Shown here: in pieces, positions 19,973 through 53,618 of the stretch
How the letters are laid out: each line of letters opens with the position of its first letter
How positions within the stretch are numbered: position 1 is the first letter of the stretch
NCBI RefSeq assembly: GCF_017875325.1
Contig: NZ_JAGGMN010000001.1
Coordinates: 682,001-746,000 of the forward strand
Origin: Methanofollis sp. W23
GTDB lineage: Archaea > Halobacteriota > Methanomicrobia > Methanomicrobiales > Methanofollaceae
Reading direction: 5' to 3'
Length of the DNA stretch: 64,000 nt
Notes under the pieces: generated by a model
What the model saw: only the letters and a program-made list of their open reading frames with translations
What the model was told of the DNA's origin: nothing
The model's database searches: none
Translations under genes and position numbers: made by a program

Positions 19973-20204
19973 GGCTTTGTAGAAACCCTCACTTCCTCTC
20001 GGTGCAAGGGTAACTCAATCGCCTTCCCACACAATCACGCCGGGGGCTCTGCCCCCGGACCCCCAGGACCACGATGGAGCCGGGAAGGCACACAAAATGA
20101 CCATGAAGAGGGGATTGCCGTCCACGACCTATCGCGTGGCGGGGGGTTCGGGGGGCGGCCAGCCCCCCGTCGAAGAGAACCATCAGGAGGGTTTCTACAG
20201 AGCC
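19973..20204 (+). mobile_element. Full-length 232-bp MITE-like element, copy 1
   Basis: Bounded by GGCTTTGTAGAAACCCTC and GAGGGTTTCTACAGAGCC, which are 18-bp inverted repeats with one mismatch. Inside are two GC-rich hairpins: GCCGGGGGCTCTGCCCCCGG near 20040, and a stem formed by GGGGGGCGGCCAGCCCCCC near 20150. It has no coding capacity. It is nearly identical, in reverse orientation, to the copy at 30875-31106, and both are exactly 232 bp. Flanking octamers GATATTAT and GTTTTAAT agree at 5 of 8 positions, so target duplication is uncertain for this copy. Confidence 0.85.
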
Positions 20205-20384: not shown

Positions 20385-20960
20385 ATGAAGAGATCAATCG
20401 GTGCAAAGACACTGCTGTATCCGCATCCGGTGCTGATCGTCTGCACGTACGACACCAAGGGCACCCCCGACGCCATGACCGTAGCGTGGGGCGGGATCTG
20501 CTCCTCGAACCCGCCGTCGGTCGCAATCTCGGTCCAGAAGTCGAGGAAGACCTACGAGAACCTGATGGCAACGCAGGCCTTCACCGTCTGCATCCCCTCC
20601 GAGAAACATGTCGCAGAGGCCGACTACTTCGGGATCGAGTCAGGCAAGAACACCGACAAGATCGCCGCCGCGGGTCTCACCGCCGCGAAGGCCACGCAGG
20701 TGAACGCCCCCTACATCGAGGAGTTTCCGGTCGTCCTCGAGTGCAAGGTCTCGCAGACCGTCGAGATCGGCGTTCACACCCAGTTCATCGGCGAGATCGT
20801 CGACGTCAGGGTGGACGAGGCGGCCCTTGGCGAGGACGGGAACCCGGCGATGGAGAAGGTCATGCCCTTCATCTACGACTCCGCATGCAGGACATACCAT
20901 GGTGTCGGCCCCGAGATCGCAAAGGCCTTCTCGGCCGGGCGTGCCCTGAAGAAAGAATAA
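20385..20960 (+). CDS. Flavin reductase family protein (FMN-binding split barrel)
   Basis: Flavoprotein of the archaeal flavoredoxin/flavin reductase group, 191 residues. The N-terminal AKTLLYPHPVLIVCTYDTKG, the FMN loop MTVAWGGICSSNPPSVAISV and the pattern RKTYENLMATQAFTVCIPS are typical, as is VVLECKVSQTVEIG with the final HTQFIGEIVDVRVDE strands. It probably binds FMN and moves electrons from F420, NAD(P)H or ferredoxin; the partner is not evident. I start at ATG 20385, where the conserved domain begins. The longer open frame upstream is read-through of the repeat element. Confidence 0.88.
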   Translation: MKRSIGAKTLLYPHPVLIVCTYDTKGTPDAMTVAWGGICSSNPPSVAISVQKSRKTYENLMATQAFTVCIPSEKHVAEADYFGIESGKNTDKIAAAGLTAAKATQVNAPYIEEFPVVLECKVSQTVEIGVHTQFIGEIVDVRVDEAALGEDGNPAMEKVMPFIYDSACRTYHGVGPEIAKAFSAGRALKKE

Positions 20961-20972
20961 CTTTTTAGAATC

Positions 20973-21093
20973 GGCTCTGTAGAAACCCTCGCCTATTGTG
21001 GGGGGATGTGTGTCGCCTGCCTTCCCACCTCTTCGGCTGGGGGCGGCCAAGCCCCCCGCCAGAGAGATTCATCAAGAGGATTTCTACAGAGCC
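20973..21093 (+). mobile_element. 121-bp MITE-like element with perfect 8-bp target duplication
   Basis: The ends are GGCTCTGTAGAAACCCTC and GAGGATTTCTACAGAGCC, inverted repeats with one mismatch. The element is flanked on both sides by the identical octamer TTAGAATC (20965-20972 and 21094-21101), a clear target-site duplication. Compared with the 232-bp form, about 110 bp of the middle are missing and one GC-rich hairpin (GGGGGCGGCCAAGCCCCC) is retained. It sits just after the stop of the flavin reductase gene. Confidence 0.9.
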
Positions 21094-21101
21094 TTAGAAT
21101 C

Positions 21102-21669
21102 TTTTTCTGGAGTATTTACCCGGGGTTGACCGCCTCCCCGACCCCATCGCCATCCCGGGGGTTCCGTGGCTGCGAGCGATAGCGAGCATGAGAATACTCG
21201 CAGGTCTTCGAGATGTGAGCGGAGTGAACACGAGAAACACGGAGTGTTTCGAAGAGCCCCCGGTGTGAGCGTTTGGGAAGGAGTGAGAGCAAGAACGATT
21301 GAGGGGGGACGGTAGGTGATCGGGAGCCGCCCTCATCAAGAGATCATCTTCACCGTCGTCTCGCGCCGGGGGTTTCACCCCCGGACCCCCACGGAGAGAG
21401 GATAGGTGGGGACGACAGTGGTTGGTGCTCCTCATTTGCGGTTTTGTTATGATGTGAGTGATCAGGATTTCCTGCGTGGTCTTCCCGTCCCTATCGTCAT
21501 CCCTGGGGTCCGGGGGCAGCGCCCCCGGCGCGGGCGGGCATGAAGGAAGGCACATCGATCAAATAACAATCTGCTCTCTGCTTCCCCTCACCTCGCCCCC
21601 CTCAGGGGGAAGGAGATATGAGGACTGAGCGGCAAGAGTATGAGACCAAGATCCCGAGGGAGAATGCAG
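21102..21669. repeat. Spacer with structured and element-derived DNA
   Basis: About 21170-21290 is unusual: it has repeated short motifs (GCGAGCG, TGAGCG, GGAGTG) and a hairpin with stem AAACAC/GTGTTT around 21235-21255. It lies between two halves of an element-like GC-rich core. Around 21385-21400 and 21510-21530 are two further strong hairpins (CCGGGGGTTTCACCCCCGG and CCGGGGGCAGCGCCCCCGG). The last 80 bp, from about 21590, hold the leader of the pyrophosphatase gene. No gene is supported. Confidence 0.45.
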
Positions 21670-30874: not shown

Positions 30875-31106
30875 AGCTCTGTAGAAACCCTCTTGATGGT
30901 TCTCTTCGCCGGGGGGCTGGCCGCCCCCCGAACCCCCCGCACCACGATAGGTCGTGGACGGCAATCTCCTCTTCAGGGTCATTTTTTGTGCCTTCCCAGC
31001 TCCATCGTGATCCTGGGGGTCCGGGGGCAGAGCCCCCGGCGTGATTGTGTGGGAAGGCGATTGAGTCACCCTTGCACCGAGAGGAAGTGAGGGTTTCTAC
31101 AGAGCC
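30875..31106 (-). mobile_element. Full-length 232-bp MITE-like element, copy 2
   Basis: Same length as, and nearly identical in reverse orientation to, the element at 19973-20204. The ends are AGCTCTGTAGAAACCCTC and GAGGGTTTCTACAGAGCC. The flanking octamers are TCTTTATG and TTTTTATG, differing at one position, which fits an 8-bp target duplication. Both GC-rich hairpins are intact. It lies 99 bp after the stop of the VapB-like gene. High similarity between the two distant copies argues that they moved recently. Confidence 0.88.
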
Positions 31107-31303
31107 TTTTTATGATTTTTTCAGGTGGGAACCACCGGGCGATCCCCCCCATTCAAATTTGTCTGGTGTGCCTTCCCGGTGCGACTGTCTATAGGTGGGG
31201 GTGGCCATGCGATGACCTTCCCATATGGTGTTCCAGGAGACCCATGGTCATGTCCATCTCGTATGCGTGAGTCCCCGGAGTTCATGCCAGATTCTACATA
31301 GCC
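31107..31303 (-). repeat. Decayed reversed long-form end
   Basis: Contains a short GC-rich core (about 31170-31200) and ends with the reversed left end of the long form, GGAGTTCATGCCAGATTCTAC followed by ATAGCC at 31303. Exactly 8 bp (AATTATTT) separate it from the next element start at 31312. Confidence 0.55.
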
Positions 31304-31311
31304 AATTATTT

Positions 31312-31936
31312 GGCTCTGTAGAATTCACCATGAACCCTGGTTCAAGCATACGGGATGAAAATTTCTCACCACTTGCTCTCTCTTTCTTTTCAAGACAGGA
31401 GAACTGGTAGAGACTTCGTTCCATCGCCGCCCCCACCTCTCTTCGTCGTGGGGGGTCCGGGGGGCACTCGCCCCCCGGTGAGAGATTCCAGGGAAGATGC
31501 TGCGATTGAGGGCAGCACGCCTGACCGACGTGCCTTCCCACGTGTTTGTGCCGGGGGCTCTGCCCCCGGACCCCTGGGATGAAGATAGGGAGGGAAGGCA
31601 GAGAACCTGATGTTCAGAAGGTGTCTCTTTCCTCTGTGTATCAGTATTGAGGATAATCAGTGCGTTCGAATTCTCATCCATAAATCCAGAATAGAACGAC
31701 TGAATCATTTTCATGGTAACCCCTCACTTTTTTTGGTCTGAGTATGATTCAACCGCCTTCCCTCATGAATCGTGATGGTGTCGCGGCCCCCGGACCCCTG
31801 AGATGAAGATTGGGCCGGGGAGGCATATTCAAAATCCCTGAAGAGAACTTGCCGTCCTCGACCAATCGTGACGCGGGGTTCGGGGGGGCGCCGCGCCTCC
31901 CGCAGAGATCGTTATCAAGAGGTTTTCTACAGAGCG
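31312..31936 (+). mobile_element. Long-form non-autonomous element (625 bp) with perfect 8-bp target duplication
   Basis: Begins GGCTCTGTAGAATTC and ends GAGGTTTTCTACAGAGCG, imperfect inverted repeats of the same type as the short elements. It is bounded by the identical octamer AATTATTT on both sides (31304-31311 and 31937-31944). The interior has an AT-rich left block shared with 53174-53290, GC-rich hairpins at about 31440-31590, and a right part (about 31745-31935) that is the inner and right portion of the 232-bp element. No transposase or other convincing protein is encoded, so it is non-autonomous. This shows that left-end and right-end fragments scattered in the window belong to one family. 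Confidence 0.75.
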
Positions 31937-53495: not shown

Positions 53496-53618
53496 GGCCC
53501 TGTAGAACTCCTCACCAATTCTCGGTGCGAGCGTGATTCAACCACCTTCCCCCCTCTTCTCGTCGGGGGCGGCACGCCCCCCACCAAAGATACCTGTCCA
53601 GAGGATTTTTACAGAGCC
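53496..53618 (+). mobile_element. 123-bp MITE-like element with perfect 8-bp target duplication
   Basis: Ends GGCCCTGTAGAACTCCTC and GAGGATTTTTACAGAGCC, and is flanked on both sides by the identical octamer GAAATTCT (53488-53495 and 53619-53626). It has one retained GC-rich hairpin (GGGGGCGGCACGCCCCCC). It is the same deletion form as the element at 20973-21093 but has diverged in sequence, which shows an older, independent insertion. Confidence 0.88.

Follow-up and report, generated by a model that had tools for sequence, protein, structure and literature searches.

Just downstream of a gene in the methanogen Methanofollis sp. W23 lies a 121-bp element with inverted ends and a repeated octamer on either side, and it raises the question of which enzyme put it there. 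We analyzed a stretch of 64,000 nucleotides around it, the window, and found no transposase for the element there, in agreement with the initial annotation. Our preferred reading, which we hold with a probability of about 93%, is that the element is a non-autonomous MITE that would be moved in trans by an IS5-family transposase, a partner predicted from relatives. Sequence and repeat analysis placed the element at positions 20973-21093 of the window, with the following parts:

20965..20972, plus strand: target duplication, left copy TTAGAATC (sequence and repeat analysis)
20973..20990, plus strand: terminal inverted repeat, left, GGCTCTGTAGAAACCCTC (repeat analysis)
20991..21075, no strand: non-coding interior with a GC-rich hairpin (folding and comparison with insertion sequences)
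21076..21093, minus strand: terminal inverted repeat, right, GGCTCTGTAGAAATCCTC, read on the minus strand (repeat analysis)
21094..21101, plus strand: target duplication, right copy TTAGAATC (sequence and repeat analysis)

The inverted ends have the 18-nt length claimed for them, and 17 of the 18 positions are complementary, with one mismatch; the octamers TTAGAATC agree at 8/8. Short, non-coding and bounded by terminal inverted repeats, the element has the form of a MITE. A listed open reading frame (20640-21050, minus strand) spans much of it, runs antisense to the upstream gene and exits the element. A search of Rfam with the element gave no matches. The element starts 12 bp 3′ of the stop codon (20958-20960) of the upstream gene, which we take to be flavin-reductase-like, and sits between this gene and an open reading frame at 21640. 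The listed start of the upstream gene, 20097, falls inside another end-bearing repeat (19973-20204); a start at 20385 fits the 192-aa open frames in two other Methanofollis genomes, G001 and G005, better.

We then looked at the insertion point in the 12 Methanofollis genomes. The upstream gene was found in all 12, and the downstream sequence was recovered at four of the 12 loci, our own included. G004 and G005 are uninterrupted at this point: when the window flanks are joined with one octamer, they align across the site to G005 without a gap and to G004 with a 1-base gap. In G001 the place is taken by different, unalignable sequence with no copy, as judged by eye.

The end of the element is present in very large numbers. 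If up to one mismatch is allowed, the 12-mer GGCTCTGTAGAA is found 340 + 358 = 698 times (forward plus reverse) in the 2.9-Mb genome of the window (G000), and the reversed control pattern 4 + 6 = 10 times. With at most two mismatches, there are 33 ends in the window against 4.07 expected. None of 100 shuffles reached this count, which, together with the genome-wide figure, refutes a chance inverted repeat with chance octamers, a notion for which we found nothing. Counts in the other genomes, with the reversed control in parentheses, were 763 (10) in G001, 308 (14) in G005, 197 (12) in G004, 146 (10) in G009, 71 (6) in G010, 61 (6) in G008, 17 (5) in G011, 16 (6) in G003, 13 (6) in G002, 6 (7) in G007 and 5 (8) in G006. 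The whole 121-bp sequence was matched in eight of 61 genomes, all of them Methanofollis.

Flanking octamers were listed at other copies, as the initial annotation had proposed. In 464 kb of G000, 198 ends (at most two mismatches) formed 121 inward pairs within 2.5 kb, and in 15 of them the octamers agreed at seven or all eight positions. Randomly combined pairs agree in 0.42% of cases, so about 0.5 would be expected. The 15 pairs are mainly 121 to 124 and 215 to 232 bp long. Among the 106 pairs without such agreement, many are unrelated ends paired with each other, and others have presumably decayed. The genome thus holds further paired copies with duplicated flanks, and the description of the locus as a MITE with an 8-bp target duplication is borne out by the matching octamers, the empty site and the many copies. 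Just outside 116 ends (at most one mismatch), the most frequent bases were G-A-A-A-T-T-T-T. Since the last position is nearly as often C, this consensus is close to the palindrome GAAATTTC; it is AT-rich, the GC content of the sample being 59%.

Might these repeats rather be kept by selection as hairpins, acting as terminators or mRNA-end structures and no longer or never mobile? The position 12 bp after a stop codon would suit such a role, as would the strong folding of the element (z of -5.9 and -5.5) and the finding that just 31 of 116 ends lie inside long open reading frames, which make up 80% of the sequence. However, inverted ends by themselves give strong folding, scarcity in genes follows from purifying selection, and the target duplications and the clean empty site show insertion. 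We therefore regard this explanation as very improbable.

Several other copies were recognized in the window, and they come in more than one form:

53496..53618, no strand: second short copy, 123 bp, with duplication GAAATTCT (8/8; inward-pair octamer test)
30875..31106, no strand: long copy, 232 bp, octamers 7/8 (inward-pair octamer test and alignment)
19973..20204, no strand: probably a decayed copy of the long form, 232 bp, octamers 5/8 by eye, upstream of the flavin-reductase-like gene
31312..31936, no strand: 625-bp stretch, B-type end on one side and A-type end on the other, octamer AATTATTT 8/8
1534, 6136, 31303, 31312, 52175, 53003, 53174 and others: family B ends; the L021 end is at 1856, minus strand

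Aligned to the long copy at 30875..31106, the 121-bp form shows a large internal deletion. Internal deletion of the 230-bp form is the probable origin of the short form (about 120 bp); the alignment leaves the break-points unfixed. Family B is a second family, with ends GGCTCTGTAGAATCNGGCATGAAC...GCATACGGGATGAAA, whose termini are common with those of the 121-bp element's family; one 356-bp copy, in L021, is bounded by two B-type ends and flanked by the 8/8 duplication CTTTCTTG. The 625-bp stretch is a possible composite, and as a single pair it could conceivably be due to chance. At 31303-31936, a B-type end adjoins this composite with one octamer common to both, and this octamer recurs at the composite's far side; the segment was possibly carried as a unit by two MITEs.

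To estimate the load, we used profile models for three kinds of element (short form, long form and family B), built from 13 elements and leaving out a 271-bp pair (L076) and the 625-bp window pair. In an evenly spaced 400-kb sample these models cover 6.6% of the sequence, and matches that reach a terminus cover 5.2%, in 147 merged blocks. Scaling from the sample gives, by extrapolation, about 1,070 terminus-bearing blocks per genome; the long-form model also picks up the GC-rich interior hairpin, which may occur alone. In the window, coverage is 8.6% (6.4% for terminus-reaching matches), in 30 blocks. In reversed sequence, models of a previous version gave no matches.

We next considered which transposase could act on such ends. 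In five Methanosarcinales genomes, the exact ends form inward pairs about 1 kb apart. Seven of nine such regions that we fetched hold one transposase gene, sometimes broken; the remaining two, L206 and L207, contain unrelated genes. Four of the seven are flanked by 8/8 octamers (L199, L200, L202 and L204), L205 by octamers agreeing at 6/8, and L201 and L203 show no octamer match. The transposase matches PF01609 and the NCBIfam model of the IS5 family, NF033579, with 228 to 232 bits against a cut-off of 140. Residues D133, D206 and E262 and the spacing Y255-R258-E262-K269 are invariant in its alignments. We take the former to be the catalytic DDE set and the latter to be the Y-R-E-K signature of the IS5 family. 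In the Methanococcoides copies L199, L201, L203 and L204, the transposase frame enters the terminal repeat and ends ...RISTE at the last full codon of the element; with no stop up to that point, the stop would lie in the target DNA outside.

A profile of three proteins from these insertion sequences was then used to search the 12 Methanofollis genomes. Nine matched, with long matches in G003, G005 and G002 and fragments in the others; the G005 transposase L218 has an open frame across profile residues 8-305. There were no matches in G001, G007 and G010; G001, which is MITE-rich and transposase-negative, is 81% complete. Complete insertion sequences with 8/8 octamers occur in G003 (1007 bp, three of three full-length loci) and G005 (L209, 1008 bp). 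The same agreement is seen at a frameshifted 954-bp copy in G009 and at a 1395-bp copy in G006 whose ends have two mismatches; among the loci with 8/8 octamers are L208, L209, L212, L217 and L224. The flanks of the G002 copy have no octamer match. Four more transposase-like loci in G003 (L230, L232, L234 and L235; E = 6.6e-11, residues 97-297) belong to another DDE family, and three of them have no such ends within two mismatches.

The link between the MITE and these insertion sequences lies in their ends and in the length of the duplication, 8 bp in both. The 121-bp element agrees over its first 17 nt with the left end of the insertion sequence in G009 (17/17), and its last 20 nt recur exactly at an end of L199 and L200, IS5-type elements of Methanococcoides alaskense (20/20). 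Beyond these 17 to 20 terminal bases, comparison with eight insertion sequences gave matches of 9 to 10 nt only. This likeness in ends alone counts against the IS5 reading, as do the 106 inward pairs of G000 without octamer agreement and the three genomes of the genus, MITE-rich G001 included, that gave no transposase match. G003 counts against it too, with three full-length insertion sequences and hardly any MITEs (16 ends, control 6); the ends of these insertion sequences are variant, GGCTTTGTTGAA, and less like those of the 121-bp element. The ends also resemble those of IS903, and the 8-bp duplication fits the ISH1 subgroup of the IS5 family. On the IS5 reading, the DDE transposase would bind the 17- to 20-bp ends of the MITE in trans and excise or copy it. 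An AT-rich target would receive a staggered cut to which the MITE is joined, and host repair would duplicate the 8-bp target.

The initial annotation had pointed to an IS6- or ISL3-type transposase instead. The IS6, ISL3 and IS1595 families also make 8-bp duplications, and both this length and the GG-starting ends fit them. Some archaeal IS6 members indeed have 8-bp duplications and GG ends (PMC6807381). But the genome of the window has no matches to the IS6 domain PF13610, ISL3 (PF01610) gave no match in any of the 12 Methanofollis genomes, and an IS1595-type carrier (PF12762) likewise gave no match in G000. Across the order, 145 of 150 genomes gave no PF13610 match, and the IS6 loci of the five positive genomes lack the ends GGCTCTGTAGAAAYCCTC within two mismatches; among 15 searched genomes with such MITEs, IS6 was found in just two. 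IS5-type elements with these very ends do exist, and a carrier from the IS6, ISL3 or IS1595 families is accordingly a slim prospect. Another candidate, L238, the one other DDE_Tnp_1 gene in G000, was also rejected: it is IS1634-like, hence of another family, it has an internal stop, and the end-like 12-mers around it stand 2.8 kb apart with octamers that differ.

No intact IS5-type partner was found in G000 itself. The profile detects 32 residues alone (L216, E = 3.4e-4), a relic that stops 25 bp short of an intact end and abuts unrelated coding sequence. That the genome has no intact copy of this transposase counts against the IS5 reading, and the partner is therefore predicted from other Methanofollis species, where it is present. 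The ends, the duplication, the empty site, the multi-copy family and the same-ended IS5-type elements in the genus are direct observations; from them we infer that the 121-bp copy was moved by this transposase or by a close relative that the genome has since lost. Copies confirmed by duplications in G000 (six short, eight long) have a median mutual identity of about 70%. For 14 copies in Methanosarcina sp. UBA293 the median is 96%, suggesting that the family was recently active there and is old here. Given the 32-residue relic and the roughly 30% divergence among copies, the family in G000 looks immobile, old and stranded. Alternatively, a transposase may arrive on a plasmid, or its gene may be missing from the 99.7% complete assembly.

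The same ends are found well beyond the genus. In the genome_contigs collection, the paired end pattern occurs in 99 stretches, from Methanosarcina, Methanolobus, Methanococcoides, Methanomethylovorans, Methanohalobium, Methanoregula, Methanofollis sp. STE_20, DPANN and a few bacterial bins. Among 98 exact-ended elements with flanks, octamers agree at 7 to 8 of 8 positions in 40 and at 8/8 in 36, against 0.38% in the control; in the comparison that gave 36 exact 8-bp and nine exact 9-bp duplications, 44 elements showed none. Two elements, in a Tenericutes bin (L113) and a Cloacimonadota bin (L150), have identical flanking octamers and length and so look like one DNA stretch, perhaps a mis-binned methanogen contig. 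Nine of the 98 have exact 9-bp duplications (L083, L085, L098, L103, L149, L165, L167, L169 and L179). They are mostly from DPANN (Woesearchaeota, Nanoarchaeota, Micrarchaeota), with one from a Phycisphaerae bin. Their 12-bp ends are the same, and the continuations, AAAAAGTC or AAAATGTC, differ from the AAATCCTC of methanogens. These elements possibly form a sister IS5 lineage, which we assume to be IS903-like. Viral contigs gave no stretch with paired ends. Nine viral stretches carry a longer end pattern, which we took as chance because the ends are unpaired and the reading frames near them look, by eye, like ordinary virus genes.

The initial annotation had called such elements seldom described in methanogens, which is too strong: Table 4 of PMC3852290 lists 18 new archaeal MITEs, 12 of them in methanogens and four assigned to IS5. 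The IS5-type ones in methanogens are those of IsMbu10 in M. burtonii, ISMba19 in M. barkeri, and ISMma12 and ISMac15 in M. acetivorans. Like the present element, they are small (140 to 252 bp) and have 15- to 17-bp ends common with an IS5-family element and an unrelated interior. By description they differ in copy number, listed as 5 to 24 where we count many hundreds of ends, and in the length of the duplication, 0 or 3 bp as against 8 bp. According to the same paper, the similarity between a MITE and its partner is generally confined to borders of less than 20 nt, and 19 MITE-like repeats have no partner, a lost one being among the explanations offered. Compared with the IS5-family insertion sequences of NF033579, of which the autonomous partner is a member by sequence, the 121-bp element encodes no transposase. 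The Sulfolobus SM1 to SM4, Correia and ERIC elements, as described in the review PMC10969869, are likewise small, repeated, non-autonomous and intergenic. Their copy numbers run from 25 (SM2) to 44 (SM3), exceed 120 for Correia and reach 711 for ERIC in Photorhabdus, compared with about 700 recognizable ends here and the extrapolated number of blocks. The review also states that the 8 to 10% MITE share of some plant genomes is not observed in prokaryotes; on our 400-kb sample, the load here comes near this extreme. The element is thus of the same kind as the IS5-type methanogen MITEs in print, and the unusual part is the load, high against the archaeal figures given in PMC10969869. We found no paper on MITEs of Methanofollis or Methanoculleus, nor on such a load in Methanofollis, in a literature search that covered subscription journals thinly.

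The transposition mechanism itself is textbook, and the missing mobilizing enzyme now gets a name, an IS5-type transposase. Full-length transposases are present in G003 and G005, and none or a fragment was found in the two genomes with the highest load, G001 and G000. We tentatively suggest, at somewhat less than even odds, that this lineage is among the most MITE-loaded prokaryotes. One IS5-type end set may have given rise to several interior families whose debris makes up 5 to 7% of the genome, the autonomous insertion sequence having gone extinct in the two most loaded species, and the 8-bp form of methanogens and the 9-bp form, mainly of DPANN, may be two sister IS5 lineages parasitizing archaea and their partners. 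The 12 Methanofollis genomes, whose end counts run from background level to over 700 within a single genus, offer a natural series on why MITEs explode.
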